Positions 19,541 through 58,662 of a DNA stretch of 64,000 bases are shown here, piece by piece. Numbering within the stretch: the first letter of the stretch is position 1; each line of letters begins with the position of its first letter. The position numbers were made by a program, and so were the translations under genes. The stretch covers positions 38,763,554 through 38,827,553 of the forward strand of contig OX485803.1 of NCBI GenBank assembly GCA_950295325.1, read 5' to 3'. The notes below the pieces were generated by a model. The model searched no databases, had not been told where the DNA came from, and worked only from the letters and a program-made list of their open reading frames with translations. Origin of the DNA: Polytrichum commune (Eukaryota > Streptophyta > Polytrichopsida > Polytrichales > Polytrichaceae).

Positions 19541-19544
19541 GTCG

Positions 19545-20088
19545 TGTAAATAGCGATTGTGTATCATTGCAGCTTGAGTACCAATCATCACTAACAAACA
19601 ACATTAAAACATAGCCAAGTCACACATAAATAACACACATCGATAGAAAAGGAAGAGAGTCAAACCCGTGCAAAAGCTCTAATTCTCTCTTCAAATGTAC
19701 ACAATGAGTCAAGCTATCTCTCACTCCACTATGAAAGAATCCAATAATATAAGAAAGGGGAGAAAAACCCAAGATTTATTGCAAAAACATGCAATCTTCA
19801 CCTCACACAAGCTTTCTCCACACACTCACTCACAAGACTTGACTTGGCAAGAATGCCAAACTAAGGAGGAGGCTCTTCATTTAGGAGCCTTCCTCTCCAC
19901 ATCTAAGATTCATTCATTCAAATCTAAATGAATGAAGCCCAATGGATAAGGTACGGCCATCGACACCACATACCGTGACAATTGTAGTGTAAATAACGAT
20001 CGTGTATCACTGTAGCTCGAGTACCAACCATTACTAACAAACAACACTAAAATATAGCCAAGTCACACATAAACAACATACCTCGACA
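19545..20088 (-). repeat. 3' LTR candidate with a duplicated end
   Basis: In element orientation the LTR would start TGTCGAGGTATG at 20,088, directly after a purine-rich tract, and run about 445 bp to about 19,645. A further copy of its first about 100 bp follows at 19,545-19,640, giving an A-U-A arrangement as in an LTR-LTR tandem. The middle part matches 29,168-29,508. Confidence 0.55.
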
Positions 20089-20100
20089 TGTTCCCCCTCA
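20089..20100 (-). promoter_or_regulatory. Polypurine-tract-like sequence
   Basis: On the minus strand TGAGGGGGAACA immediately precedes the proposed LTR start TGTCGAGG. This is the position expected for a plus-strand primer of an LTR retrotransposon. Confidence 0.5.
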
Positions 20101-20378
20101 ATTGACTATAGAATCCCGCCAAGCAGCTAGGACCAATGTCAATAAAAAAGATATGGATAATGAAGAATTGCTCCGCAATCAACTATACTAGTATGGTGAA
20201 CGTTATTCTAAAAAACTGTAGGCTGGGTGCAGTGTGAGCTCCATCTTTAATCGCCTCTGATGTTTGGCCATCATATTCTAAAGAATTAATTCCACCGTCT
20301 CATGTTCGATTGCGCCTCTAAGCTATGACTCATCATTTTCCATTTTGGCATGCATAACATGGTGAAAGCCACACATGA

Positions 20379-20640
20379 TCATTGAATATGACTGATGGAA
20401 ACACCAAATATTGAAGATCCTTGACAGCGATGATAACTCCACTGTCCAGCTGGTAGAGAAATCAAGGGTGGCCTCAAGCATGCCATGTGCCAACTACGTT
20501 GACACAGATCACATAAGAACATAGTAGCCGCTTCTTTTTTCTCTCCATACACAAAATACGAAAGACCCTTTGGCACGACGGCCAGTTCATGATGAATTGT
20601 ACCCTCGATGAGTAGATGACATGGGGCACAATTTTTGGAA
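20379..20640 (-). pseudogene. C-terminal PHD-finger-like domain of the gypsy polyprotein
   Basis: The frame contains CDLCQRSWHMACLRPPL followed by LPAGQWSYHRC. This fits the second half of a PHD finger (C-x2-C-x4-H-x2-C, then W-x-C-x2-C) with the penultimate Cys changed to Tyr. Upstream, the position of the first Cys pair reads YFVYGEKK, so both of those are also Tyr. Such a module at the end of integrase may read chromatin marks and guide integration. Here three of eight zinc ligands are lost by Cys-to-Tyr changes. Confidence 0.65.
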
Positions 20641-20699
20641 TACTCACGACATTCCCGGCCATCCTTGCCTTTCAACAATAACAAACCACTCGGCAAGCA

Positions 20700-21620
20700 C
20701 ATAATCCCCTTGTCGGAATCTCCCCAACTGAGGTTGGTAAGCACCACTGCGAATGCATGCATAACGCAATGTGTCACAGAGCTGAGCAATGAACAAATTC
20801 TCCATGGCCATAGGTATGGCCCTCTCGAATAATTGAGCCCACTCCTGCAAACATTATGCCCAAATGTTTAGGGTCATCCAAGCCTACAATAGAAACTAGT
20901 TTTTTCCCAAATAAAACTCGAGAGTATAGGCTCACATTCATACAACAACTGATACAGGCTGTAGGACGCCAAATAGGCATGCCTACTAAATCGACAACCC
21001 ATAACAATATAATGCAACATAAGGTCCCAATCCTGGTGGCTCCCCCAAAGTAATCCATACTTCCTCAAGCCACGTTTGATGTTTGAACAACCCGTTCAGC
21101 CAGACCATCTGCCTTTGGATGATCCGGAGAGGTGGTGTGGTGATTTATGACCGCCTTAGTACACAACTCCTCAAAAACACCGAAGAACTCCATCCCTTAG
21201 TCCGTCAATACCTCAGCTGGTGCTTCAAAACGTGCCAACACACGATCCAAAAAGGCGGCCGTGACCAACTCTGTAGAGTTTTGGGGTAGAGCAACAAGCT
21301 CAACCCATTTGCTAAAATGCTCCACATCACCAACATGTACTTTGCTCCACGTGGTGTGACAACCAACGGTCCTGCAAAGTCCAGCAACCAACGGTAACCC
21401 AATCTCATGATAGGTAAGGGTTGTAACTGAGGTGACAAAGTGTTAAAGTTAGACCTAACCCAGTCACAACCTTCACACCTCCCGACATAAGTAGCCACCT
21501 GTTGATACATGCCAGTCCACCAATATTGGCCACGCAACATTGAATTTGTCATGCGTATGCCAAAATGGCCAAGATCCTTGTGCACTTGTCGCACCAAGGA
21601 GGCCCTCTGATCCGGCCTAG
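20700..21620 (-). pseudogene. Integrase domain, decayed
   Basis: Visible parts are an HHCC-like N-terminus (HKDLGHFG ... GRCEGCDWV), the core segment LLDFAGPLVVTPRG with the first catalytic Asp, LVTAAFLDRVLARFEAPAEVLTD with the second Asp at 21,204-21,206, a segment reading ADGLAERVVQT with the probable catalytic Glu near 21,090-21,110, and a C-terminal part (ERAIPMAMENLFIAQ). The codon after the second Asp is TAA where Gln is usual in this family. Stops and frameshifts divide the domain. Confidence 0.8.
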
Positions 21621-21899
21621 GGACAATACGCCTTGTCCCATCCAGTCACAATCGATATAATAAACTGTTCTCCCAACGGAACCTTGCTATTCAATATCCG
21701 ATCCTATCTTTTTCCATTGCCGAGGTAGACGAAAGAAAGGTCCCCCGCTGAAGCTTATGCAATACGGGAAGATCCTCCTATGTATCTGCAATAGCTTGAG
21801 GTCGATCAGTCTCATCATCCGAGCCATATATTGGAACCTCAACAGCCGCACCAGAAAATAAAGTGAGGTAAGCAATCGCCTACCACCCTGAACAAGCTT

Positions 21900-22470
21900 T
21901 CGATCACAATCTCCATGCCACCTGGCCCCGGTCAAGTCCTCAATCAAAGGACTTGGATTGCGTGAGAGTCTGTCTACATCCAGGTTGGTAATCCCAGCAT
22001 GGTACACCACCTCAAAGTCATACTCCTGGAGCAATAAAACCCACCTGGTGAGCTTGCTATTAAGCTTATCCGACTCCATGAGCCACCATAACGGCTGATG
22101 GTCAGTCACCAAAGTAAAACGTTGATCATAAAGATATGGCCGGAAATGGACAATAGTCTACACTGCCGCCAATGTTTCTCCCTCATAGGACGAATAATTG
22201 GCCTCCGCCGTGTTGTTGCTTCGCGAAGCGTAAGCAACAACATACTCTCAGCCAAAGTCATCATTCTGAGTGAGGAGTGCTCCCAAACCCAATGAACTCC
22301 AATCCGTATGCAACTGGAAAGATTTGGAGACATCCGGACGTCGAAGTACTAGAGCCGCACCCAAAATTTGTTTCAATATTTCAAATTCATGTTGTTGTTT
22401 ACGATCCCAAGTCCAAAGTTGGTTCTTGCTCATGAGAGTTGTGAGAGGCTTGGCGATCAAGCTAAGGTCA
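21900..22470 (-). pseudogene. RNase H domain, decayed
   Basis: FQLHTDWSSLGLGALLTQ marks the start of a Ty3-type RNase H domain (usually with Asp-Ala-Ser), and VTDHQPLWWL with DFEVVYHAGITNLDVDRLSRN marks its end. It follows the reverse transcriptase directly, as in Ty3/gypsy pol, and is broken by at least one frame change near 22.11-22.25 kb. Confidence 0.8.
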
Positions 22471-22479
22471 TGACGAATC

Positions 22480-23310
22480 GACCATAGTAATTCACCAAGC
22501 CCAAGAAAGCACGAAGTTTTAGAACATCGACCGATGTCGGGATCTTCTGCAAAACATCCACCTTAACTTACTGCACCCAAAGACCTCCTAGCATAATCAT
22601 ATGACCTAGATATGCTAGTCGGTCATAAAAAAAAACTTGCGCTTGTCATGGTACAAACGCAATCCCTACTACCGCAACCACTCAAAAACGGTTTGCAAAT
22701 GCTTTACATGTTCTTGTAGTGTTTTGCTGAAAATGATCACATCATCAATGTAACATTGCGCAAAGGACAAGCTAGAGAAAACTTGGTGCATCACTCTCTG
22801 AAACTCAGCAGGTGCATTCTTGAGGCCAAATGAAAGAAACTTCCAATGATACAGCTGATCCTTCCCATCCTGATCAATTCCCCAGAATGCGGTTTTTACT
22901 CGATCTCCCGCAAGTAATGGAAGCTAGTGATAGTCGGATCTCAAATCTAGGGTGCTAAAGACTTGAGAAAATCCGATCGCATTGAACAACTCCTCGGGGA
23001 TTGGCATGGGATACCAATCCGACTTGGTCTTCCGATTAACTGGACGGTAATCCCTGCACATCCGCTTCTCCGTCCAATTGCCAAATATATCCTTTTTCGA
23101 TGGCATAACCATAGTACAAATATACTCCCCGTTGGAAAGTTTGATTAGCATTGCTGCCAAGAGCTCTCGGCAACAAGCCTGAACGCCAATCCGCTCGGAA
23201 ACACTGAGCCTATAAGATCTCCAAAAAATTGGATGGTTGTCCTCCAATTGAATGTGGAAGGGTTTTCCTTTATAACTTTCAAGATCTTGAAGGCTAAAAG
23301 CAAAACACCT
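22480..23310 (-). pseudogene. Reverse transcriptase domain, decayed
   Basis: The N-terminal fingers read MCRDYRPVNRKTKSDWYPMP and STLDLRSDYH, and the catalytic box is C-Y-I-D-D at 22,741-22,755. The order RT then RNase H then integrase identifies Ty3/gypsy. An in-frame stop near 22,924 separates the fingers from the palm. Confidence 0.88.
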
Positions 23311-23819
23311 ACAGTACGAGAAAATAAACACTCGTACTTTCTGTGCCTCAACACCAATGAGATGAGGGCCTAATTCCAATGGCCAATCATCAAATTATGT
23401 GGTCTCCCTCTCCACCTAAGGAGAATCACTTGATGCTAGCACATACTCTAATTGTTGTTGAGAGGATGGAGCATTAACCATGCCCCCAACCTCAGTGCTA
23501 GCAATAGAGTTTGTCCTCTCTTCATCACCACCAATATGTGATGATGAAGCCACCACCGGAGGTGAGAAAGCCAAAGCAATATAAACCCGTTGAACTTAGA
23601 ACTCCTCCATCACCTGCTGCTCAAATCAAAAGATTCGTTCGACTTCTCCAACCATGACCTCAATTCCCTCCTTCATAGATGTGGACTGTTGTGGTCCCTA
23701 ACCAGAGTCCTTTACCTCCAGAGACCACAACTGGTCACTATGATGTCGTTGCAATGCAAGGCATAAATCAACAGTCCACACCATGGTATGAAAATCCATG
23801 GTTTTGTCCAACACAAAAC

Positions 23820-24760
23820 GTCATTGGCCCTCAAAAAGACCAGGAACTGCGATGGTGCCAGTGCAGAATCCCATGGCAGGCTCTCGTTCGTCAGCTAATA
23901 ATTTGGTATGGGTTTTGGTACGAGCAGCCCACACCATACCCAACCTTTGATCACAGAATGCAAATGACTTTGGAAACGTCATAAAAATAAGGAAGGCCCT
24001 CCGTGGTGTCCCCACTTTGTTGACCAATGCCAACATGAGTAAATCATCTCGAACAACCAGTAAAGAGGTCCGGTTCGGATCCAAGATGTCATCCACTTTC
24101 TGATTAAAAAGTGGAAGCACTGTAGAAAATGTTGTAGCTAAAGTGGATAACGGTGCAAGGTTGGTCCAAATCCACCTAGGCCGGTGGAAATAAGAACCAA
24201 GGCGCGCGACATCCACAAAAATGGGATTTCCAATGTGTTGACAAACATAATATTGGCCTTCCAACACCTTGGCTCGAGAGTCTCCCAACAAAAGAACATT
24301 CTCGAAGATATACCATGGAGGGGAAGGTTAGTGAGCAAACCACCACTGCATGAGCCGGATGAGGTCCCATAATAGACTAGACATGGGATCCTCTAGACCT
24401 CGGCCTGCTCCAATACGTGAATGGCCCTGGCATGGCCATCCCGCGATCACCATATCCACCGGACCCAAGTGTTGTAAGTCTACCTCACTGATAAGTGTAA
24501 CATCACGAGGGAGAGGTGCAAAACACCCACGAATGGCAGTCGGGTGTAACTGCTATGAGTATAACACCATTAACTGGTGGAAATGATGACACTTGACTGT
24601 TGTCCACATAAACATACCGTCGAATAGTGAGGCCAGCCTCCAACATGGCCGCCAATTTTGTTTTGATGCCCCCAAACACTTCCACCAAAGTAATCTCCTT
24701 GTCCGGCGGGTGCCACAAAATGGGGTGTGCCAACGCCAATGGTCTATCCGGTATGACCGG
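23820..24760 (-). pseudogene. Cytosine-5 DNA methyltransferase domain inside gypsy pol, decayed
   Basis: Motifs appear in canonical C5-methyltransferase order: motif I ITLVEVFGGI (24,665-24,694, SAM binding), motif IV DMVIAGWPCQGHS with the catalytic Cys in W-P-C-Q at 24,427-24,438, motif VI FENV (Glu-Asn-Val at 24,295-24,303), motif VIII-like GSYFHRPRWIWTNL (about 24,155-24,195), and a motif IX-like ADEREPAMGFCTGT near 23,850-23,890. The domain lies between protease and reverse transcriptase, where ordinary Ty3 elements have only a short linker. Stops and frame changes show it is inactive in this copy. It would methylate cytosine in DNA, perhaps the element's own. Confidence 0.82.
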
Positions 24761-25059
24761 TGTTGTAGAACCTAGAGAGAGAGGATAATGTCCTCACATT
24801 GCTGGAGTAGCTCTGTGTAATCACACCAAGGAGGAAAAGACACACCAATGCACTATGAGGTGCCATCTCTCGTTGATCCTCAACACTCCCCATAAATGCC
24901 AATGACTCCTCCAATAATGCAGAACCATAGGGCAATGTGTCAATAAAAATACCACACCCAAAAATCATGGATAATGGTGTTATGATAGCGGCAGCCATGA
25001 ATGCCATAGGAATAAGTTCCTTACGGCCATCCCCAGCCGACCAACATGGTCGGATCCAG

Positions 25060-25520
25060 ACCTCCTCAGTCTAGTTGTCCAAACAAAAACCGAGAGGGTA
25101 AAATGCTTGCTGACCAACTAAAATGTTGTAGTTGGTCGCCTCTGTGACTGCACATCTGAGAAGAAGAGGTGCGGGTGGATCTCCAGGCTAGCTTCACTCG
25201 GAAGCTAAGTTGTAGTGGCTCTCGAGTATATATCCAATGGCCCGCTCCACGTGGCCAATGGATGTGACAATGGTAAATGGGCAAGGAGCTAAGTCGTCGG
25301 CCGTCAATCACAATTCTTGCGCAAGCTTTTTGCATATCATAACAAGTTGTACCCCTGAATCCATCATCACATTGGGGAGCAACTCAAATAGTGTTGCCTC
25401 TAGCCCGACCGACCACCAAAATGCCAGAATCATTTACCATACGTACGATGCCAGGTTGAATGCCTTGACGCTTGTGAGTAGGTCGTGCAGCTCCATCTGA
25501 GAAATAGGCTAGGCCCGCGG
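25060..25520 (-). pseudogene. Retroviral-type aspartic protease domain, decayed
   Basis: LLPNVMMDSGVQLVMI contains the D-S-G catalytic triplet at 25,353-25,361, followed by TSIGHVERAIGYI-like sequence split across frames. The position between gag and the rest of pol fits a Ty3/gypsy protease. Confidence 0.6.
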
Positions 25521-25869
25521 AGGTTGGTGAATCATAAGATGAGATTGGCTCTTGGCCATCCGAGGCGTGTGTGTCAAAAGTAGCAATGGCTTCCGCTGCA
25601 AGCCTCGTAAGTCGTCTAGCCGCTTCCTCAAGATCCTTCGTGGTAGGAAGGTCAGTGGTGGCTTAAACCAAAGTCAGAGAAGACGAGGGTGTTTTTCTTT
25701 CCAAAATCCTACCTACTAGGTGAAAAATCTTAGCTGGTTGGATGCCGGATAACGACCACTCCATCGCTGTGAACAAAATTGTGTGCAACACTTTGGATAC
25801 TAAAGTGTGCACCATGTCGATCGTCGGGTTCAAAGCCTCTAAGCTTGAATTATGATCATTAATAGATTG

Positions 25870-27250
25870 AACAACATCCGCCAATCAAAAAAAAAAATGA
25901 CAGACGTGTTTGCCCAATTTGATCTGGGGGACCGTTATCCCGAGCTCGTAAGTTGTCCACACACTGCTATGTGGTCGAAGACGTGGTTCGTCACACGGAT
26001 TGAGCACATGTCACCGTTGCGGAACTCACCATCTCCCCTGAAGCTCCGAACATATAATAATCCGGAATGAAAGAACTAGCCTTAGCTTCAGAAGAAGACG
26101 GGGAGTCCAAAATTTGGCTGGATAACGCCAAATTTTTGAATCTCTCCTCCAAGGCGCCAAACTTCGCCTCCAACGCATTTTCTTGTTCGGAAGAAAACCG
26201 TTTGTCTGGATGGAGAGTGAAGCAGTTCTCCACTGTGTGATTGTTCCGCCCACAATGAGAACATTTCAACTGCTTATATAAATGATTATCCGCCCCCTTC
26301 GTCGAATTATTAGCGGAAACAACTGGATTCCGCTTCAGATTACCTACGGTTTGAATTTGTCTTTGCTTCGAAGGACAATCATTTTTAGCGTGGTTCGCTT
26401 GTCCACAAGACCAACAATACAAGGTCTTGTCCACCTCTGCCTCCGCCAATCGTGCAACCACAATCGAAACCTTCCGGAATTTGCTATAATCCACTAGCAA
26501 GGACACCAAATCAATGACATCGTGTTGAGACAAGGCACGATCACACTGCTTCACAACGGTGAAAGCCTTGGCAAGTGTCACCCAACCACCATAATATATG
26601 ATGATTCTGGTTAGAACTAAGTCAATGAGGCATTTGTCAATCTTTGACAAAAAAACCTTCACCGACTAGCTTTCCGGGAAAACACCTCCAGATTCCTTGA
26701 CAATCTCGCCAACCTCGTTGACATGGTACGATGTGGGTCATTTTTCTCTCGCTGGAGGTCTTGGATCCGCTGCATTTAATTCCGACGGAAACCTTTATAT
26801 TCCTCCTCCAAATGGATCTTGAATTCCTGCAGAGGATTAAAATTAGGCGGAGCCCCCTAAAGAGGCTAATGTCGCATATATAGCCTAGGCCTAGCAGGAG
26901 AGTAGGAAGATCGGGCTCAACGTACTCGCGGATGCGGAAGAAATTTTTTTTTTCCTTAGGTTCATTAGGAACAGCTATTTGCACGTCCACTACAAACACG
27001 TTCTCCGCTTGCTCTGTCTTCACTATAGGAGGGGTTAATAAACTAGAAGTTGTACTCTCCTTCAACGCGGAAACCAACTCCACTCGAGTCTTCTAATACC
27101 GCTTCACCTAGCGTAGCTCCATCCAATGAACGTCCCTTCATTGCTCATAAGTTTGGAGCGCTTCGTGCTCCAAATATTGGGGCAAAAACTCTAACGCACA
27201 CCAGTCATCAAAACTGGTATTGCGTTGACGTTTCTCCTGCATCCACGCCC
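25870..27250 (-). pseudogene. Gag with two CCHC zinc knuckles
   Basis: Two retroviral-type knuckles are visible: CWSCGQANHAKNDC (26,375-26,416) and CSHCGRNNHTVENC (26,222-26,263), both C-x2-C-x4-H-x4-C, which bind the element's RNA. Upstream sequence (26,637-27,083) is a charged capsid-like region. A Glu-rich segment EARFGALEERFKNLAL-like follows the knuckles. At least one frame break near 26,640 interrupts it. Confidence 0.75.
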
Positions 27251-29160
27251 TAAACCAAATTTTCCAATCTTACATGGAAATGGTTTTTATTCAATTGGAA
27301 AACCAGTCTCGGCCTTCACATGACATTTTCTCCTCCACATTGTCAAAGATCCCTACTCAAAGGAATTGAGACCGAATGACAGTCCTTTACGCCGAAGTAG
27401 GCTGAAAAGCCTCATTGGGTGCTACCACTAGTTCAAAGTCGGAGAGCTCCGATGATCGATCTTCCGATGCTCCTCGAGATGACGAAGGATAATGTTGGCT
27501 CCAAGTCGTAACCATAAATTCACAATAAATATGGTGATTTGAGTCAACAACCTACACTATTTCAGTGTCAATTAACAATAAATCAATCAATCAATCAAAA
27601 AAACAACTTGCACATGCAATCAACACCAATCTTATGGTCTGTTGATCATTATTTTAGCCTCACCATGAGGAAATACAAGCACCGCCCACTTGGTGCACAC
27701 GCAAGGGTCCTGTTGGTCATTACTCCGACCTCACCCCCACAATAACGCATCACAAACTAGTACAGCACAAAATGAGACAATGTTGGTAACGTCCACCAAC
27801 ACAGCTCGCCACGGAAGAAGGTATTACAACGAAATACGGAAAACAATGCAAAAACAATAATGGATTCTCTTCTTCAAACAACAAATAAACAAAATTCAAA
27901 TTGACCGCGCCCAACCGGCACTTGCCTGCGGTTGGTGGTCAAGCGTAAAATACCCTTGTTGCCGTGGAAAAAAAATTGACATATAAGTACATCTCTCATT
28001 TCCACTATAACATAAAAGCTCCCTACTACAACAGTCCCCCGGAATTTGTGTTGCTAAACACAATTCGATCTTAACAAGTATGTTGTTAAGTCGAATGGTG
28101 ATTTTATATGCCACACAACTCTTAATAGCAATTTTTCGACAATCCCATACACATACCCCTAAATGAATCCCAACGCCCATAATTTGCCCCCAAGAAATAA
28201 CTATATGATTGTTTAATTTTTTTCCCCTTATTTTTTTCTTTTAAGCAAAAGAAAATGAAAATCTCATCTTATGCCAAGTACCTCGCCCCAATCCGATGTG
28301 GTAGAAGAATAAGCCAATTGCACATTCACTGCAATTCCACTTCCTCGGCGTGTTCCCGAATGCTCCCGCAAACTTTTCTTACGATACTTGTTTCTTTCAC
28401 AACCCAAATACCCTAAGTTCTCATAAGGTACTTATGAATGGCGGCATCGGATTGTCGCAAATCTCCGCATTTCCATTCTTGATGTCCCTCCAATATATAC
28501 TTTTGATTTTAATTTGTTTTGTTGTTGTTGTTTTTTGGGGGGTAATTAACCCTCTTAAGTATGGGGTTAAGGAAAATAAAAACAGCAGGGACTAAGGGGG
28601 TAGGGGTATGGGGTAGGTTGGGCTAGGGTGAGGGGCTAAGGGTTGGGACTAGGGGGCTGGGGGCTAGGTGCTAGGTGCTAGGGCTAGGGGGGTAGGGGTA
28701 GGGGTAGGTGGGGGTGGAGGTGGAGGAAGGGGAGGAAGAAGGAGGGGGGACCTGCCATGGCGTGCCGCAAATTGACGTTGCGTGCCGCTGGCATACCTGA
28801 AGAAACAGGAGCTCTCGGAGGAGCTTCTCCGCCTCTCCTCTTCTCTCGTTTTTTTTTTGTTTAAATTTGTTTTTGAATGAAATTGAATTTGAATCGGAAT
28901 CAAGAATGTTCTTCACAAGCTTAATGATATGAATGCAGGCTTATAAACCAACATATAACAAGAAATTCCATAGATAATTCAATAATTCATCACCACAATT
29001 CACTTTGATGTGGCATTCACAAGCAAACATTCTTCTTCTTCTGGCTTTGCAAATCCGTGGTGTTCTTGTTCCGACATTCCGCAACCTCACCACTCCTTAT
29101 CCTCACACCTTCCTTTGCGTGTTATATTTCAAGAATAAAGAAAAAAAAATGACGCATTCT
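27251..29160. other. Probable gypsy leader plus G-rich tract
   Basis: No gene can be supported. The first part is likely the untranslated leader of the gypsy element. At 28,590-28,750 there is a strongly G-rich strand with many GGGG and GGGCTAGGG-like blocks. Confidence 0.4.
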
Positions 29161-29167
29161 TGCCAAG

Positions 29168-29508
29168 TGAGAAGGAAGAGAGTCAAACCCTTGCAAGAAC
29201 TCTAATTCTCTCTTCAAATGCACACAATGAGTCAAGCTAATTCTCACTCCACCACGGGAGAATCCAAGAATATAAGAAAAATGAGAAGAACCTAAAAATT
29301 ATTGCAAAAACATGCAATCTTCATCTCACACAAGCTCTCTTCATACACTCGCTCATAAGACTTGACTTGGCAAGAATGCTAAGCCAATGAGGAGGCTCCT
29401 CACTTGGGAGCCTTCCTCTCCATAACTAAGATTCAACCATCCAAATCTAAATGGATGAAGCCCAACGGATAAGATGCGGCCACCAACGCCGCATACCGTG
29501 ACATATCA
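29168..29508 (-). repeat. 5' LTR candidate (partial)
   Basis: Direct copy of 19,650-19,977: both contain 'gaaggaagagagtcaaacc' or a close variant, 'attgcaaaaacatgcaatct', and end 'gcataccgtgaca' or a close variant. The first about 100 bp of the LTR (element orientation) is missing here, where the sequence runs into the Harbinger-like element at 29,521. Confidence 0.6.
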
Positions 29509-37261: not shown

Positions 37262-37530
37262 TGTCTAAGGAGAACATAGGGACATGGATGTGCACAACAT
37301 AGGGACATTTATTAGCACAACATAGGGACATGGATGTGCACAACATAGGGACATTTATTAGCACAACATAGGGACATGGATGTGCACAACATAGGGACAT
37401 TTATAAGCACAACATAGGGATATTTACTAGCACAACATAGGAACATGCACGTGCACAACATAGGGACATGCATGTGCACAACATAGGGACATTTACTAGC
37501 ACAACATAGGGTCATGTATGTGCACAACAT
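37262..37530. repeat. Tandem minisatellite, unit about 27 bp
   Basis: Units of the form 'gcacaacatagggacat' plus a variable 'ttattag' or 'ggatgt' segment recur about ten times just inside the left end of the MULE. Confidence 0.9.
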
Positions 37531-37539
37531 ATTGTCCTT

Positions 37540-39210
37540 TCACAAGTAGAACATGGACACATTTATTTGCACAACGTATTGTCCTTCCTCACGTAGAACA
37601 TGATCATATTTATAAGTGTAGAAAATTCACTTATTTGAACGTGGAACATGGAAGCCTTATTCATGTAGGACATTGACACTTCTTCGACGTAGAACATGGA
37701 CACATTCGCAATGAACAACAGGGGCTTATCCCCAACGTTGAGTATATACTTGATCGTAGAACATGAACTCATGTCCAACGTAGAACATATGCACTTCATT
37801 ATAGTAGGACATGGACTCTGTTTGATTGTGGAACATGGACAATGCTTTATTGTGGAACATGGACACTGCTTGATTGTAAAACATGGACACTGCTTTATTG
37901 TGGAACATGCACTCATATTGGTTGTGGAACATGGACATTGCTTTATTATGGAACATGCACTCTTATTGGTTGTGGAACATGGACACTGCTTAATTGTGGA
38001 ATATAGACACTGCTTTATTATGGAACATGCACTCATATTAGTTGTGAAATATGCACTCTTATTGGTTGTGGAACATGGACACTGCTTAATTGTGGAATAT
38101 AGACACTGTTTTATTATGGAACATGCACTCATATTGGTTGTGAAATATGCACTCTTATTGGTTGTGGAACATGGACACTGCTTAATTGTGGAATATAGAC
38201 ACTGCTTTATTATGGAACATGCACTCATATTGGTTGTGAAATATGCACTCTTATTGGTTGTGGAACATGGACACTGCTTAATTGTGGAATATAGACACTG
38301 CTTTATTATGGAATATAGACACTGCTTTATTGTGGAATATAGACACTGCACTCATATTGGTTGTGAAATATGCACTCATATTGGTTGTGAAATATGCACT
38401 CTTATTGGTTGTGGAACATGGACACTTCTTTATTATGGAACATGGACTCTGCTTTATTGTTGAAAATGAACTTTCGTTTATTGTGGAACATGCACTCTTT
38501 TTGGTTGTGGAACATGGACACTGCTTTATTGTGGAACATGCACTCATATTGGTTGTGGAACATGCACTTTTATTGGTTGTGGAACATGGACACTGCTTTA
38601 TTGTGGAACATGGACTCTGCTTCATTGTTGAAAATAGACTCTGGTTTATTGTGGAACATGCATTTTTTTTGTTGTGGAACATGGACTCTGGTTTATTGTG
38701 GAACATAGACACTGTTTGATTATAGAACATGGATATTATTGGTTGTGAAACATGCACTGTTATTGGTTGTAGAACATAGACACTGCAATATTGTGGAGCA
38801 TGGACTCTGCTTGATTGTTGAAAATGAACTCTGTTTAATTGTGGAACATGTACTCTTATTGGTTGTGGAACATGCACTCTTATTGGTTGTGGAACATAGA
38901 CTCTGGTTTATTATGAAACATGCAATTTTATTGGTTGTGGAACATAGACAATGTTTTATTGTGGAACATGGACACTGCTTGATTGTGGAATATGGATGGA
39001 CTCTGCTTTATTGTGGAACATGCACTCTTATTGGTTGTAAAACATGGACTCTGCTTTATTGTGGAACATGCAATTTTTTTGGTTGTGGAACATGGAGTCA
39101 TCTCCAACGTAGACCAAATGCATTTTATTATAGTGGAATATGGACACTGCTTCATTGTCGAACACGAACTCATATCCAACATAAAACAAGTGAGACATTG
39201 ACACCTTCTT
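37540..39210. repeat. GAACATGGACACTG satellite array with 96-bp higher-order repeat
   Basis: About 1.7 kb of diverged units of about 27-33 bp with the core 'ttgtggaacatggacactgc'. Between 37,981 and about 38,300 a higher-order unit of exactly 96 bp recurs (starts at 37,981, 38,077, 38,173 and 38,269). Because 96 is divisible by 3, long open frames arise on both strands. These are repeat artefacts rather than genes. Confidence 0.92.
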
Positions 39211-41818: not shown

Positions 41819-44800
41819 GCAGGTGTTTGCTGGTCGGCGAACCTGGCAGGCGAGGGACAAGGTTAAAATGGCCAACAACAGGTACAGGTTCAATTGTATT
41901 TATTGCAATGAGTCACACAAGGATAAAAACACTGTCTCTTACCATAGGATGTTTAACCTATGTAAGAGCTACACGGGAGAGAAGCCACTCAAGATGTATC
42001 CAACCTGGGAGCCAAGCAATCATGGAGAGAAGCATAGGATTGCACAGAAATTCAACAAGGTTTCCTCGCCACATGGGTCGCACTCCCACTCCCCATCGCA
42101 GTTTCCTCCGCCTCTGGAATTGGAGTCCAATCCAGTGGGCAGTATATCATTGGTGGCTGCCGATGCAAAACATGGTGTTCCATCCAGAAAACGCAAGCTA
42201 CCAACACGAGGACGCCTGTTCCTATCATTGGCTGTAGAACTCGCAGCATTGGTGTGGACGCCCCTCCCTCATCACCACCCCGCAAGGCGCAAAACCTTGC
42301 AGTGAAGGGACCGCCCAGAGTACCCAAGTCACCCTCTGCCAATAAACGACTACCGAAGAACAAGATGTTGTCTCACAGGATTTGTATATCCTCCAGCGAA
42401 GAGGAGCTGAATTCGGGCACATCGCCAAGCGAGTCCGACTCCACATCAAAGGAGGCGACTCCAAATTCACAGAACAATGGTCATAGGCACTTCCGTGTTG
42501 TGAAGCACGAGCATGGACATCGTGCGCAGCCTTCGCAGTTGCGCTCTGAACATATCCAACCACAGGTTCAGCAGACTAAACTTATTCGAGCTACGACTTC
42601 GCACGATGGTGTACTTTTGAATCCTGCCATAGACATAGACATTGTTCCGCAAACAGTACCTGTGACGGACATTGTTCTGCAAACCGAGCCTCCGCGGGAA
42701 GATGCTATTCCCCTTGTTGTTGCCCAGCCGTCGACTGAACCTGTCCAACCTATCCCCATATCGCGGGAGGAGTGCAAACAACATGCGTACGAGGAGGCAA
42801 CAGTTCTTTTCCATGCGCCTAAAAAGATTACACGGCCTCCAGAACCAGTGCCAGTCGATGGTCTCTATGTGCTTATCAACGAGACTGACGATTACTGGGT
42901 GCCAAAAAGTCTCTTAGGTGACCCGGATGGCTGCATGCAATACCTCCAGAAACAATTGGAAGATGGCTCTATTGGTAATCACATTGGAGCTGCATTTGGG
43001 CAATGGTACCTGTATGGCAATAATCAGGTATTGTGTTTTAATGTCATGTTCTTCAGTTTTGAATGTGCTCTATCATCTCATGTTCTACCAGAGCAGATTG
43101 GCTGCACAATATTATGTTCTTCCGGTGTATACATTGCAGAAGAACCTTGGAGAACATAGCAAATTTTTGGACAAAATAAATGCGCAGGTCAGGGTTTTTA
43201 AGAGCAATTCCGATGTGAACGTGTATGAAGAGCTCAGAAACCTGAAAGACTATCTTCATTATCGCATCGAACAAAGGGAGTACGATGAGAAGGTTGCTGC
43301 CGCCAAGGTCAACTTAGAGAATTTTAGAAGAAATCACGTCGAAGACGCGTTACGAAAATTTGACAGCGCTGTGAAAGAGAAGGAGGAGGAGTCCAAGTGG
43401 AAATGGTCACCGTTGTACCAGCTATTCAGAAAGTGGCCTCTAAAAAATTTCAAGGCTGGCCCATGGGACCACACAGAACAGGAGTGGCTGGAGATGTCAG
43501 CTGTTCTGCTGGAGAACACGAAGACCGAGCCTCTGTCACTTGAGCGTGAGTGCCCGCATGTTTTGAGAGCATTTTTGTACTTGGTCAGAAATCATACGTG
43601 TTTCAGTCGTCCAATTTCACACCCAACTAGAGGTCTCCACGAGGAATACATATTGGAGCTTGCTCGAGACACAGTCCAGTCAGTCGCCTTGACGACAATT
43701 GCCCAGAACATCCCTATAACAGGTTGGAGTACTTTCCCCGGCATCGAGAGTGCCGCAGAACACATTGATGTCCTATTCACAGACGTTGCAGCTCTGCTTG
43801 GACACGAACCATCAGGGCAAATGGTTGTGGTTAAGAAAATGGAGTCCTTCATTGGTAGGATCGCGCAACGAGCCATCGCAGACATGGTCCGCATGCACCG
43901 TGAAAGTGAGCTTGCTGACATGTGGTTCAGTGTCGACGTCGGAGAGCAACGCCAAGCGAAGTGTAGCGAGGTATGTCCTGAGTCTTGTTCATCTAACAAT
44001 CACCCTCGGGGTTTAGCATGTTCTTCACTATGACGATTGGGAGTTAATTGGAACATGATATGTATAACAATACATTTTGAATATTAAATGTAAAACAATA
44101 TAGTAATATATAGTGCAAAACAATACTGGTAAAACAACATACAATGGCCAAAGTAAGTGAAGGATATGTGGCGTAGGTTCTGTGTTTATCAATGGTCTTC
44201 CGCGAGGACGTTGACATAGGAACATTGACATTGGGTGACCTGCACAAAAAGAGCCCCTGCGTGCAGATGCGGGGGAAGGATATAATACAGAGCTTGCAAT
44301 ATGTAAGGTCCACCCAATTGCGGTTGTTCAATTGTGGACTGGGAGTGGAGGAAACAACAGATGACATTGCCCCTGACCTACATTGCATGAGGGCGTTGTT
44401 GTTCGAAGAGGTGGCGATGCCGATGGAAAAATCATCTCGATCAACACTGGGGTTCGGGGGTGAAGTACATGAGGCCATGAGTTTGGAGAGTTTGGACTCA
44501 ATACCTATGCACATGGATTTCGATGGCGTCGACCGCATCAGCACGCAGGACCTCTCCCTAACACAGCTTAGTTCTGAGATGCAGAACACGCCATTAAGGT
44601 TCGTGTCTCATACCACACCCTTATCAGCCTATGAGTTCAATTAAGCACCTTCCACCTATGCCTTTTGCTAAATGGTCAACACAAGACCGTGGTTTTACAG
44701 GACGCCGTCTCACACACTTGCAATAGGGCCTCCGGATGGCAGGACAATGGTTTCTCCAGCACGGAGGTTGAACCTTGAGGACACTACCCCTACTGGTTGC

Positions 44801-48132: not shown

Positions 48133-51100
48133 TCATTTGGAGCTGGAAAGCTTTCTCCTTGGCAACGGGAACTCCAGGAAACTCCTCCGGCATTTTAAAG
48201 AGTTGTCGCCTGCCCTCTCTGGAAACGAGGTTGTCGTAGGAGTCAATGGCATCCGTGTAACACCTTGTGCAATAAGTTGGTTTTGCTTGCCCCGAATGTG
48301 CCTAAGGCCAGCGATCAAGTTAGTTTGTAGAACAGGATGTTGCTCAGCCTTGAGTGCAAGGGTGGCGTAAATGTCGTGCGTAGTTGCGGCAGTAGGTGCT
48401 TGTGAAGAACTCTCTTGGGAAAGGGGAGTCGAATTGAAGGAGTCATTATGGGTAAACTGAGAAGATAACTGCGAGGGGTTCTGTTCGTCGTCCACAGTCA
48501 CAGGGTCCACAGGAGTTAGAGTGATGTGATCTTCGTCAACATCAATTTGCAGAACATTGTCTTGCACCACAAGTTCAACTTGGATTGGCGTGTCGACGTC
48601 TTCCGGAACATGGATTTGAGTAGTCTGTTGTGACAGTCCTGCGTAGCAACGCGCAATTGGAGTGTCGCGCTGAGTTCCATGTCGTGTACCAGCTTCACGA
48701 ACTATGGCACCATCTTCAATTCCAGGGTGGAGCATCTTGAAGACTTTAATGGTATGCTTGCAAATCATGCCCTCTTTGGCGACGGGGCAGTCGCATTGTG
48801 CCCATTCAGAGTCCAGACATTTGATGGTCCACACCTTCGGGCGGTTGTTTACAGACCCCACATATGCAACATCCTCGTCCAAACAAATGAGGATGTTACT
48901 GTCAGGTATGTCGTTGGCTCCCATAATTGCAGATGCAACAATACCCTCTTGTTTCTTGTTGCGTATATATCCGTATGCTTTGCATTGGACACTGTACCAG
49001 TAATGAGTCAAAACGTCACCGTTAGATGATAAATAAGCCAATCCATGTGCCTACCCACAAATCTTTCTTTGGCAGAGTTTAGAACACTCTTCAAATTGCC
49101 GTGGTAGGATTCAATAGCCGCGTTAGTGTTCTGTCCTGCATGTGGTATCTGTCGCGCTCCAACGCACCACATTGGTGTCTTGGCTCGCCAAACATCGTTC
49201 ATGTATCTCATGAACGCACTCGCCAATGGACGAGTGTTAGATATATTGTCAAGTTGGTCGAGGGCCCAGTCGATAGGATCATCGTCAACCTTGCAACCTT
49301 TTCCGTACATTATGTCGCCGAGCATTTGAAGAACAGTGTTGCGTTCTGCAACGCTTGAAATTTTCTTGATGGCGTTCTCTGCCCATGACTTCCTGACATG
49401 CCACAAGCACAGGAAAATTTTGGCTTGCGGCCACACCATGCTGCGCGAGAGACAAAACAGCAGATTATGAGCTCACATGATGAACATTGAGGAAAATACC
49501 TGTAACAGTGAAGAATTAATAATTAACACCAATATGCAATGCAGGACACTGCATTACATATTGGGGTGAGACTACAAAGTAAAAGTTGCAGAACATACAA
49601 TAACTGCTTACCCAAGTGTGTTAATTTTAGCCTGAGCATTGTCAACGATAATAGAGGATGGTAACCAATCATTTTTTAACCCTTGAACCCTGTCATGTAG
49701 CGCTTGAAGAACTGGGCGGAGATCTTGTTCACGTGTCCGCGAAATGACAAAGAAAGCCACTAGTATGCCATTTCTCCAATCATCGAACACCATGACAGTG
49801 TAGAGTGGGTACTATAGAAACAATGAACATCATTGTTAGCATAGGGCATAACATGGTTGAAACAAATTGACTGGCAGTATGAGAAAATCATCACAGAACA
49901 TGACGACGAAGATGAAGGACATGGACATTAGCTTACCTTAGTCTGCCTGGTACCAAACGTGGCGTCAATGGAAAGAGCGTTGTTGTGACCGAAGTTTGCC
50001 ATCATTTCAAGTTGCCATTCAGTTTGTATGCCTATGGTGAAAGGTGAGTCGTCCTGTGTTTGAGAATTAAGGTCCAGTAGCGAGTGCTCTTGGTAGTAGA
50101 ACACGATGTCTGGATTCTCTGCTGCCCACATACGGACGCTAATCGGGTCGGACGGATGTTTCTCCCACAGGTCTTCAGCCCTCTTTCGACATATGTTTCT
50201 GACGTCGGACGACAACAAGAATGTGTCGCACGTCACCACTCCATTAGACACGGCAAGCTCACGAACCTCTTTGGTGTGTTGTTGCATGATTTGGGCAGGA
50301 AATAACCCATAGGCATGCATTTCAGCAATTTTTTGTTTCATTTCAGTTGAAAGACCAACACTGAGCGCATATCTAAATCCACCGATCATGGTGCCGTGAC
50401 AGTGTTCTCCAGCTTTATTCAAGTGTTCTGCATTTTCATAAATTAGCAAACACAACGAGTGGTCCAGATAGGGCTTCTTCGCAAGAAAACAACATTGGCA
50501 CCCTTGCTTTCTTGAGTTGCCCGCATATGTCTTGCCAATGCGCGCAACCTTTGGACGGGTTGATTTGCTCACTGCGAAAGACTCGTATTCCGGTACTACC
50601 TTCTTACATTGTTTTTTCTTCTGCAACATCTTCTGTTTTTTTTTTTTTTGTAGATTTCAGTAGAGCTTGCATATCATGTGCAAGAATATCACTCCTATCT
50701 TCGGGGCCAAAATTGCACCTGTATCTGCAATGGCAATGGAAGAACACATGTATTGAATATGTATCATTTTATATGTACATATTTGCAGGACATGGAATCC
50801 ATACACCCTCATGAACAGTAAGGACAATGTACTGCAAATTGTGGAGTGTAGAATGAAATGCATAAGTTTGATATTTGGTTGCTGAGCACATTATGACAAG
50901 CAGAACATGAATAGTGTGTGGTTTCAAATTCAGAGCAGGCAGTAGGTCAAACCTCAGTACAATTGCAGGACTGTGTGCACGAGGTGTTCGCAAGGAGTTT
51001 GGCAAGTTAACACGCACGATTTCCTTGGTGAAATTGCAGGGAAATTGAGGATGTTGTTGCTCGTCTTTAATGAAATCATCAAGTCTCTCCCACAATATTA

Positions 51101-51375: not shown

Positions 51376-51815
51376 AATGTGATGAGGGAGGGGATGTGTC
51401 ATTGTAAGGTGAAGGCGATGAAGAAAAATTGAGCAGTACCCAACTACTTTGAACAGCAGAACTGGAAACGAGGGAGGGGATGTGTCCTTGCAAGGTGAAG
51501 GCGATGAAGAAAATTTGAGCAGTACCCAACTACTTCGAATAGCAGAACTGGAAACGAGGGAGGGGATGTATCCTTGCAAGGTGAAGACGATGAAGAAAAT
51601 TTGAGCAGTACCCAACTGCTTCGAACAACAGAACTGGAAACGAGGGAGGGGATGTGTCCTTGCAAGGTGAAGAGGATGAAGAAAATTTGAGCAATACCCA
51701 ACTGCTTCGAATAACAAAACTAGAAACGAGGGAGGGGATGTGTCCTTGCAAGGTGAAGGCGATGAAGAAACTTTGAGCAGTACCCAACTACTTCGAATAG
51801 CAGAACTGGAAACGA
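51376..51815. repeat. 86-bp tandem repeat upstream of the transposase
   Basis: Five copies of an 86-bp unit ('gaaacgagggaggggatgtg', 'tccttgcaaggtgaaggcga', 'tgaagaaaatttgagcagta'). It lies directly upstream of the transposase ATG and may be its promoter region. Confidence 0.93.
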
Positions 51816-52262
51816 GGAGCAAAGAACTCAAAATCTGAAAACACGAGCACAAATGACGAAACCCTAAACCATCACACACTATGCAAAGAAATGTGTGGTC
51901 TGCGTTCCAAGACCCTTAAATCCTAGATCCAAAAATCACTCCATTCGCATACCTGTAGAGCATGTTCTGTATAGGTAGATATATAGGAACACTCCATCGC
52001 AGATCTGCAGAGCATGTACTGTATATGTACATATGCAGAACTGGGTCTGGGTGTACAGATCTGGGTATACAAAACAATAGATGCAGAACTGGATATACAA
52101 TACCCTATACTTGTAACATTGTGTATATAACATTGTATGTATAAATATATAAGGATCTTAGTATATGTCAATGTCGTGTACTAAATCCTAGCTACACAGG
52201 TCTGGAGGACGCCTTCAACGCGGACGTGGAGTGGAGTGGATGGACGGCTGGACACTGCTGAC

Positions 52263-56900: not shown

Positions 56901-58662
56901 TCGAAAGTGATTGAAGAATGTGTTGAACAATCAAGGCCGTCAATATAATATTTCTTGTGCTAACCAACAGTTGCACATCATATATATTTTTGGGTTATTT
57001 CATATATACCTTCTTATATGTCTTTGTTCCTTCAAACGCAAACATAATCTTGGAACTTTATTTGAACTTACTCAAACACAATGTATATGAGGGCAAAGAA
57101 GAACCCAATGGATGCGTACGGTAATAAGGAATGGAAACGGATGAGAGAATGTTAAAGATGAGGAAGAGGAAAGCAGGAAGGGAAGATGGAGGGAGGTAGG
57201 GATGGAAGGTGGATTCTAAGTGTTCTTGTTAGACAATTTTTGTATCCGTTTGTCTAATGACGTGGCACCTCGATCCACACACAAAACCTCTCTATATATT
57301 CATGGGACATTGTCAAGGGGGTCCATGATTGAAAGCATACTAGATGAAATATGACAAGCAGAGCCCAACATTTTCCTTTTTAATTGCACCCATACCCAGA
57401 CCATGCCCATCAGCAGTGACCTATGCCCACCCATGCCCACCCATAGCATGACATGTGCGCACCCATGCCCACCCATGCCCACCCATGCCCACACATAGCA
57501 TGACATGTGCCCACCCATGCCCACCCATGCTATTCAAATTGCGCCCATGTATTCAAAAATTGTGTAATGTGTATTGTGTAATGTGTAATGTGTCTTGTAT
57601 GATTGTGTAATTGTGCCCCACCCATGCCCACCCATGCCCACCCATTATAATATCAAACCCATGCCCACCCATGAACAATAATATCGCAGTCATGCCCACC
57701 CATGCCCACCCATGAACAATAATATCGTAGCCATGCCCACCCATGCCCACCCATGAACAATAATATTGCACCCATGCCCACCCAAAAGGTGGGTATGGGC
57801 ATGGGCATGGGTATGGGCACCCAATGTAGGGCTATGATGACAAGTAGAGCTGAAATTTATTGGAGATGTCGGCTCAATTGATTGTTTGCAATTGTTCGTT
57901 TGCAGACGCTCTTTGCTAGCAGGCCGAAATCCTCCCAAGCTTCCAGAGACCGAACCCCCCGAATACAAAGTGCTTCCGGAAGTCGAACTAGGTGATAGCA
58001 CTCCCACTATGTCCGAGGAAGTGACGTTTTCGTTCACGAAAGAGGAAATCTTGCAGTTGAAGGAGCAAGCGACGGAGGGGAACACCCTTGGCCCTTTCAC
58101 GTCGGCGGAATGCATATCGGCTCATCTATGGAGGGCAATCACAAAAGCAAGAGGGTTTAGTAGGGAAGACACCACTAACCTCTACTCCGTCATCAATGGA
58201 AGGAAGAGGATGGAAGGCTTCCCTCTCGCTTACTTTGGCAATTGTGTTTTTCTAAGGAGATGCGTTTGCTCCATGGGCGATTTGTTGGATAAGCCATTTG
58301 GGGAGGTGGTTGCGATGGTTCATGATGCGATAACTAGTTGCACCGACGAGTACGCGAGGTCGTTTGTGGATTGGGTGGAGGACGTGGGCCCTTCCAAGGT
58401 CGGCTTGCGAGATGGGGAGACCTTCGCTTCACACCACTTCCAGCCCACGTTCTGGACGCAATTCCCGATCTACGATCTGGACTTTGGGTTTGGGAAGCTG
58501 ACGTACGGGGGTCGGAACAGCCAGCGAGTCGGGGGCTCTAGTTTCGCGGCGGTGTTGCCTACGGCTGCAAGAGATGGGTCTGTGAGGGGGATCATGTTCT
58601 GCCAACCAGAGGCAGCTGCAACTCTACGGGACATATTGAAACCGCAAAACACAAATTCTTAA
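53908..58662 (+). CDS. BAHD acyltransferase (hydroxycinnamoyltransferase-like), 3 exons
   Basis: Exons 53908-54393, 56175-56317, 57906-58662; phases agree and the product is 461 residues, the normal BAHD length. The small middle exon carries the catalytic HHHVADG (H179-D183 as HxxxD). The last exon carries YDLDFGFG (residues 402-406), a variant of the structural DFGWG motif with Phe for Trp. Other family landmarks: LVRPVSPSPAK at the N-terminus, VEFYPLAGRLVKG, PILVVQ/VTLFRCGAITLAV across intron 1, and PDHRRSLLAGRNPP across intron 2. These cytosolic enzymes transfer acyl groups from acyl-CoA to alcohols or amines; HCT and related phenolic or polyamine acyltransferases are the nearest idea, but substrate cannot be read. 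A broken duplicate lies at 33.4 kb. The introns carry repeats. Confidence 0.93.
54845..55445. repeat. Diverged repeats in BAHD intron 1
   Basis: Two families: copies of 'gg.caggtccatccaatgcccattatctagt' type sequence at about 54,845-55,065, and three copies of 'agagggaatgtgacccag.cag.tgataac' type sequence at about 55,135, 55,270 and 55,410. The block at 34,930-35,270 matches part of this in inverted orientation. Confidence 0.7.
56343..56530 (+). repeat. Dispersed repeat family A, copy 5
   Basis: It contains 'gtgggcttaatatggtcatt', 'atcctaatcaaacacctaca', 'aaaagagattggattgcatg' and 'agtcaacataatta'. It is the best plus-strand copy and begins 26 bp after the splice donor of BAHD exon 2. Confidence 0.7.
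57409..57830. repeat. CCCATGCCCACC minisatellite in BAHD intron 2
   Basis: Two blocks (about 57,409-57,530 and 57,614-57,830) of 'acccatgccc' units, the second with a longer unit of about 57 bp including 'atgaacaataatatcg'. Between them is a 'gtgtaatgtgt' repeat. It ends about 75 bp before the exon 3 acceptor. Confidence 0.9.

Follow-up and report, generated by a model that had tools for sequence, protein, structure and literature searches.

A decayed retrotransposon in the moss Polytrichum commune belongs to a family with Gypsy enzymes, split terminal repeats and a DNMT3-like cytosine methyltransferase

Because plants silence transposons through cytosine methylation, an element that itself encodes a cytosine methyltransferase (MTase) is a paradox. 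The closest precedent is KnitGypsy-Dnmt3, described from the charophyte Klebsormidium nitens by de Mendoza et al. (2018, PMC5890265). In the parts of that paper drawn on here, it combines Gypsy enzymes with an intronless DNMT3-type MTase that lacks the DRM rearrangement and is under purifying selection, and it has DIRS-like A-coding-B-A-B terminal repeats despite its Gypsy enzymes. SymbioDIRS-Dnmt3 of dinoflagellates, treated in the same text, is a retroelement with A-coding-B-A-B repeats and a DNMT3-like enzyme (PMC5890265), and a paper citing the 2018 work mentions, in the passage used here, Copia and DIRS retrotransposons with DNMT3s in streptophytes and dinoflagellates (PMC12344493). A 2019 opinion paper, in the passage cited, held methylase-encoding transposons to be absent from land plants, such as tracheophytes, and built its argument on their loss (PMC6338049). 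In this study, we analyzed a 64,000-nucleotide stretch of the moss Polytrichum commune (contig OX485803.1, positions 38,763,554 to 38,827,553; hereafter, the window), which contains a decayed minus-strand element of ~10 kb (19541-29503) with Gypsy enzymes and a C5-cytosine MTase. The window element, itself old and dead, represents a moss retrotransposon family, and carriage of the MTase is a trait of that family that is present in liverwort entries too.

A first-pass annotation of the window, made from the letters alone, had reported five C5-MTase motifs in order at 23820..24760, on the same strand as the flanking pol domains of a Gypsy-type element. All five were located on the minus strand, namely, ITLVEVFGGI (24694-24665), GWPCQGHS (24441-24418), FENV (24306-24295), SYFHRPRWIWTNL (24195-24157) and EREPAMGF (23889-23866), and a sixth, motif X-like string follows at 23799-23770. 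We take these strings to be motifs I, IV, VI, VIII, IX and X. Since ITLVEVFGGI lies in a frame different from that of the remaining motifs, the window copy is frameshifted, and it contains further stops. Three open fragments of more than 80 amino acids (aa) from the block gave no Pfam match, and the 168-aa fragment again gave none on repeat. The profile check set beforehand succeeded with a 74-aa stretch free of stops, which matched PF00145 by itself in a single frame (E 9.4e-9); the entire domain read across its breaks matched with E 5.6e-10, and its best match in the PDB was DNMT3A (2.2e-10). The domain has the PF00145 profile, the motif order I-IV-VI-VIII-IX-X, which is not the rearranged order of DRM, the Pro-Cys catalytic motif and a DNMT3 fold; among solved structures, it is nearest DNMT3 in both sequence and fold. 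The domain extends past the annotated start to ~23745.

According to Pfam, the MTase is flanked on the same strand by a zinc knuckle upstream and by RVT_1 and integrase H2C2 downstream. Together with the PF00145 match, the domain order upheld the view of a Gypsy-type element with a C5-MTase between protease and reverse transcriptase (RT). The features of the window element are listed below, where L070 is one of the copies found elsewhere in the genome and ORF denotes open reading frame.

19541..29503, minus strand: entire decayed element, from the start of repeat A1 to the end of repeat B2 (repeat layout and copy comparison)
29169..29503, minus strand: repeat A1, the 5' end, starting TGTCACGG; 335 bp, 86.6% identical to A2
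25192..27527, minus strand: Gag region, split over several frames and overlapping the protease piece (tblastn, L070 ORF1 aa 3-780)
26375..26422, minus strand: zinc-knuckle string within the Gag region (PF00098, E 2e-4)
24843..25370, minus strand: aspartic protease region (tblastn, L070 ORF1 aa 722-895, 73% identity)
23745..24694, minus strand: C5-cytosine MTase domain, frameshifted and with stops (PF00145, motif positions and copies; lower end approximate)
24331..24552, minus strand: the 74-aa MTase stretch that matches PF00145 by itself
23452..23454, minus strand: CAA codon at the site of the probably leaky TAG of other copies
22460..23454, minus strand: RT region (tblastn, L070 ORF2 aa 1-331; RVT_1, 6.1e-16 in 22669-22923)
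21885..22508, minus strand: RNase H region (tblastn, L070 ORF2 aa 316-523)
20870..21900, minus strand: integrase region, H2C2 zinc site and core (H2C2, 7.7e-15 in 21205-21645; tblastn)
20424..20540, minus strand: PHD finger closing ORF2 (fragment 20379-20867 matches PF00628, E 1.7e-6)
19981..20088, minus strand: repeat B1 (repeat analysis, family D3)
19646..19980, minus strand: repeat A2, paired with A1
19541..19645, minus strand: repeat B2, the 3' end of the element (repeat analysis)

The A1/A2 pair of the window copy has a Kimura two-parameter distance of 0.153, and the ends of this copy showed no target duplication. With sites where copies L070 and L063 agree as the reference, C-to-T changes were found at 18.6% of CG, 18.7% of CHG and 12.4% of CHH sites, and A-to-G changes at 3.9%. 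This pattern reads as the footprint of a methylated, silenced copy and is silent on which enzyme placed the marks.

A search of the genome (408 Mb in 64 contigs; all copy counts are lower bounds) gave at least 123 PF00145 matches, scored out of 353 candidates and not each verified as an element copy. At least 19 of the 123 are in open frames at least 1300 aa long, and in 18 of these 19 the match contains no stop. The 976-bp MTase block of the window recurs nearly end to end at at least 39 other places with 82-86% identity (of 256 candidates, 40 were scored, one being the window), and is thus neither a chance set of motifs nor a private insertion. The presence of the motif block in other copies, on which the first-pass annotation had made its claim depend, was borne out by these places and by open frames.

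We fetched 20 copies (L062-L081), mostly picked for their long open frames and hence an unfair sample of intactness. ORF1 consists of Gag, aspartic protease and MTase and is open over up to 1386 aa, while ORF2, which follows in that frame past a single stop, consists of RT, RNase H and integrase with a PHD finger and measures 1047-1048 aa where open. In L068, the Pfam order in ORF2 was RVT_1, RT_RNaseH, Integrase_H2C2 and rve, and the protease matches fell under Pfam's own cut-off. Well-kept copies have the MTase as the C-terminal end of the Gag-protease ORF, with one in-frame TAG before RT. The first-pass annotation had asked whether younger copies have an open pol-MTase fusion; open frames do occur, with the qualification that the MTase ends the Gag-protease ORF and would be fused to pol only by readthrough of the TAG.

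The codons after the TAG are CAA-TTA, CAA-TCA or CAA-CCA. In 19 of the 20 copies, the element strand has exactly one TAG-CAA-YYA within its 9.9-kb stretch, located at the junction, the decayed L081 lacking it; it is the stop that terminates the open frame in 15 of the 20, and it is common to two subfamilies that are ~62% identical in MTase protein. Tobacco mosaic virus uses UAG-CAR-YYA as its readthrough signal, and the same passage gives the rice gypsy element RIRE2, for which it mentions no MTase, as a candidate for stop-codon readthrough in a plant gypsy (PMC2754532). Lying before this stop, the moss MTase is probably encoded on the Gag side of a leaky stop codon.

Repeat identity points to recent activity. 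A1/A2 pairs, some of them cut by the end of the fetched stretch, were found in 14 of the 20 stretches, 12 at 98.6-100% identity, L064 at 97.9% and L081 at 93.0%. The family moved in the recent past, and young open copies lie in the same genome. Selection on the MTase was examined by the Nei-Gojobori method, with nine pairs reported. The ratio of nonsynonymous to synonymous change (dN/dS) was 0.26 for L063/L070 (38 nonsynonymous and 42 synonymous differences), 0.27 for L064/L070 and 0.35 for L063/L064; between subfamilies it was 0.15 and 0.17, at a dS near 2 and hence saturated. The corresponding RT value between subfamilies was 0.04. The MTase is thus under constraint, less tightly than RT. 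For L063/L070, dS was 0.39 in Gag compared with 0.09 in RT and 0.02 in integrase, and the low values beside the high one suggest that ORF2 has been exchanged between copies by recombination.

The repeat plan of the family, A1 at the 5' end and B1-A2-B2 at the 3' end, is one of split direct repeats and rules out a simple long terminal repeat (LTR) element. The repeat unit ends TGTC...GACA, a GC stands between B1 and A2 in several copies, and a perfect 4-bp target duplication flanks seven of the seven copies with both ends fetched (L064 after a 2-base end shift to GACA). The order RT-RNase H-DDE integrase is that of Ty3/Gypsy elements, but the identical LTRs that these bear directly at both ends are replaced by A1 and B2. 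DIRS/PAT-like elements use a tyrosine recombinase in place of an integrase and are not known to make a target-site duplication; the moss element shares their A1-ORFs-B1-A2-B2 repeats but has a DDE integrase and 4-bp duplications. It thus combines the DIRS/PAT repeat plan with a DDE integrase.

In Gypsy enzymes, DNMT3-type MTase and DIRS-like repeats, the moss element agrees with KnitGypsy-Dnmt3 as described in the text drawn on here (PMC5890265). SymbioDIRS-Dnmt3, with its tyrosine recombinase, belongs to another retroelement class and another host lineage (PMC5890265). The hosts of the present elements, in contrast to K. nitens, are land plants, and some relatives have the MTase between RNase H and integrase. 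Whereas the MTase lies here on the Gag-protease ORF before the probably leaky TAG, that of K. nitens is, per the text, in the Pol polyprotein ORF; the text as available does not use the word readthrough and mentions no PHD finger, which stands at the integrase end here (PMC5890265). No report of an MTase-bearing retrotransposon in bryophytes was found in the open-licence literature searched, including the available parts of PMC5784723 and PMC9033089. Within that literature, the bryophyte hosts, the Gag-side MTase before a probable leaky stop, the PHD finger beside an MTase and the second MTase position in relatives are new, while the kind of element itself is known (PMC5890265).

Two homologue searches listed 78 and 60 sequences; the second scored only the 7995 candidates sharing most words, and its last two rows are weak. 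Homologues named as plants came from Marchantia (P0102, P0103, P0108, P0110 and P0112), Calypogeia (P0035 and P0098) and Sphagnum (P0048, which has the MTase only and is absent from the tree below); no vascular plant appeared among the organism-named rows of the 138 listed homologues. Gag-protease-MTase frames occur in this moss and in the Marchantia entries, and a protease-MTase entry in Calypogeia, which contradicts, for bryophytes, the absence stated in the cited passage of PMC6338049. By domain context, 74 of the 138 contain the MTase only; in 47 it follows Gag/protease and/or precedes RT, and in 17 it adjoins integrase or comes after RNase H, one of these 17 (P0044) being probably a deletion product. 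Three sequences (P0116, P0127 and P0129), whose hosts we guess are perhaps green algae, have one long ORF in the order RT-RNase H-MTase-integrase-PHD. The PHD finger stands at the integrase end in both MTase-position types, so that the element pairs a chromatin-reader-like domain with a methyltransferase domain.

We constructed a careful MTase tree from 64 hand-picked rows (45 retroelement, 10 plant DNMT3 and 9 dcm-like), after a human fragment and P0111 had been dropped for their long branches. A branch at 100/100 sets the retroelement MTases apart from all other rows, plant DNMT3s form a separate group at 100/99, and the RNase H-MTase-integrase type is a single clade at 100/99. The tree itself does not place the root. 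A phylogeny against DRM, CMT, MET1 and algal retrotransposon MTases had been proposed; the part obtained sets the moss MTase with retroelement MTases and apart from land-plant DNMT3, in a tree without DRM, CMT, MET1, K. nitens or dinoflagellate rows. In an RT tree of 12 rows, all from MTase-bearing elements, the two MTase-position types again separated with a support of 92/94, which does not reach the starred level; two of its branches (P0116 and P0127) are long. One capture followed by one move inside the element would fit these trees; two captures from related donors might also account for them.

Recent capture from the host's own DNMT3 is ruled out by the tree, in which plant DNMT3s, including the two nearest, stand in for the host gene. 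This gene (L096) is nearest those of Physcomitrium and Ceratodon (75%), which marks the host as a moss, and seems to be multi-exon because its matches fall in pieces, in different places and frames. Land-plant DNMT3s with DUF3444 (Physcomitrium, Marchantia and host L096) share the C5-MTase domain and unrearranged motif order with the element enzyme, but are apparently multi-exon host genes in a group of their own. A bacterial origin was also rejected: just one of the 138 listed homologues bears a bacterial name, and this sequence, P0004 (an 'Obscuribacterales' metagenome-assembled genome, 2.4-kb contig), groups with moss copy L068 and is most simply taken as mis-binned plant DNA. A scan of viral contigs yielded 53 loci with 27-61% identity, mostly spanning motif I to VI or less; they were judged phage-type from the listing alone and left unused.

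We favour, with a probability of roughly 0.55, the reading that the window holds a dead copy of a moss family with Gypsy enzymes and split repeats, in which a DNMT3-like MTase, last in the Gag-protease ORF, is made at the Gag level and methylates the element's own complementary DNA (cDNA). Since the MTase lies before the probable leaky stop, it would be made at the Gag level, and RT, RNase H, integrase and the PHD finger only by readthrough; an enzyme made at this level would be packed into every particle. It could then methylate new double-stranded cDNA before or during integration, and the new copy would enter the genome with marks resembling host heterochromatin. The benefit may be protection from DNA sensing or editing, and a low-cost state that the host tolerates. 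RNA is presumed to run from within A1 to within B2, in which case the internal B1-A2 junction would serve as the template that rebuilds both complete ends (A...B). Dinoflagellate retroelement DNMT3s are, in the text used here, able to methylate CG in yeast (PMC5890265). Recent moss copies make the reason for MTase retention testable in bryophytes, and Physcomitrium host DNMT mutants exist, according to the part of PMC6453930 cited.

Several observations weigh against this reading. The C-to-T excess affects CG, CHG and CHH alike, and host methylation would suffice for it without an element enzyme; the window copy also has CAA at the site of the TAG. In the open segments of the 20 copies, the motif IX and X patterns fail in five each and motif I in one, partly in early-ending segments (L062, L064 and L065) and partly through variants. 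Four close pairs of subfamily I have MTase dN/dS of 0.63-1.21 on few differences, as expected after insertion and giving no support, and the MTase evolves faster than RT (dN 0.30 vs 0.06 between subfamilies). Finally, the K. nitens Gypsy DNMT3 was inactive in yeast, a result that its authors call inconclusive in the available text (PMC5890265). A broader version is tentative and rather doubtful: a single ancient retrotransposon-borne DNMT3-like lineage, ranging from algae to mosses and liverworts, may have moved once within the element, come to be made at the Gag level by way of a leaky stop, and pre-methylated particle cDNA as an epigenetic disguise.

Among the other explanations, it is unlikely that the MTase acts mainly on host chromatin, a Gag-level nuclear enzyme and the integrase PHD finger altering methylation of insertion sites or competing elements. 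The DNMT3-like fold and the PHD finger, found here and in relatives of other architecture, would suit such a role, but K. nitens, which has such elements, has a land-plant-like methylome in the cited text (PMC5890265). We regard it as improbable that the domain is retained for a nucleic-acid-binding or structural role within Gag, with methylation secondary or absent. Its junction to Gag-protease before the stop, its faster change than RT and the missing IX and X patterns fit this idea, whereas the motif IV, VI and VIII patterns (GWPCQ, the E-N-V/I string and HRPRW) are present in open segments of 20 of 20 copies, GWPCQGHS having also served to orient the segments, and motif I is present in 19 and IX and X in 15 each. 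Moreover, aligned relatives show no variation at the motif IV Pro or the motif VI Glu, and none or almost none at the motif IV Cys. RNA as the substrate, either packaged genomic RNA or primer, in the manner of DNMT2-type enzymes, is very improbable: the MTase would be packed alongside RNA, and the authors of PMC5890265 raised RNA for a LINE (long interspersed nuclear element) enzyme in the text used, but among solved structures the domain is nearest DNMT3, DNMT2 not being compared separately. Chance motifs, or an unrelated gene inserted secondarily into one copy, are practically untenable, since the window copy, though broken over several frames, has a single-frame profile match, 39 near-full-length counterparts, and open Gag-protease-MTase relatives in this genome and in liverwort entries.

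Outside the element, the window contains a minisatellite region of ~1.9 kb with 23- and 24-bp units (37273-39144; open frames of 256-262 aa on both strands) and a tandem array of five copies of an 86-bp unit with 93% matches (51384-51817). At 42038-44033, two open frames (373 and 371 aa) overlap, and neither gave a Pfam match. Two open frames on the minus strand at 48133-50656 are perhaps a transposase remnant; the first gave no Pfam match and has what we take to be a SWIM-like zinc motif. An open frame at 57841-58662 matched the Transferase family PF02458 (E 1.1e-28), presumably of BAHD type, and is likely a host gene or gene remnant.
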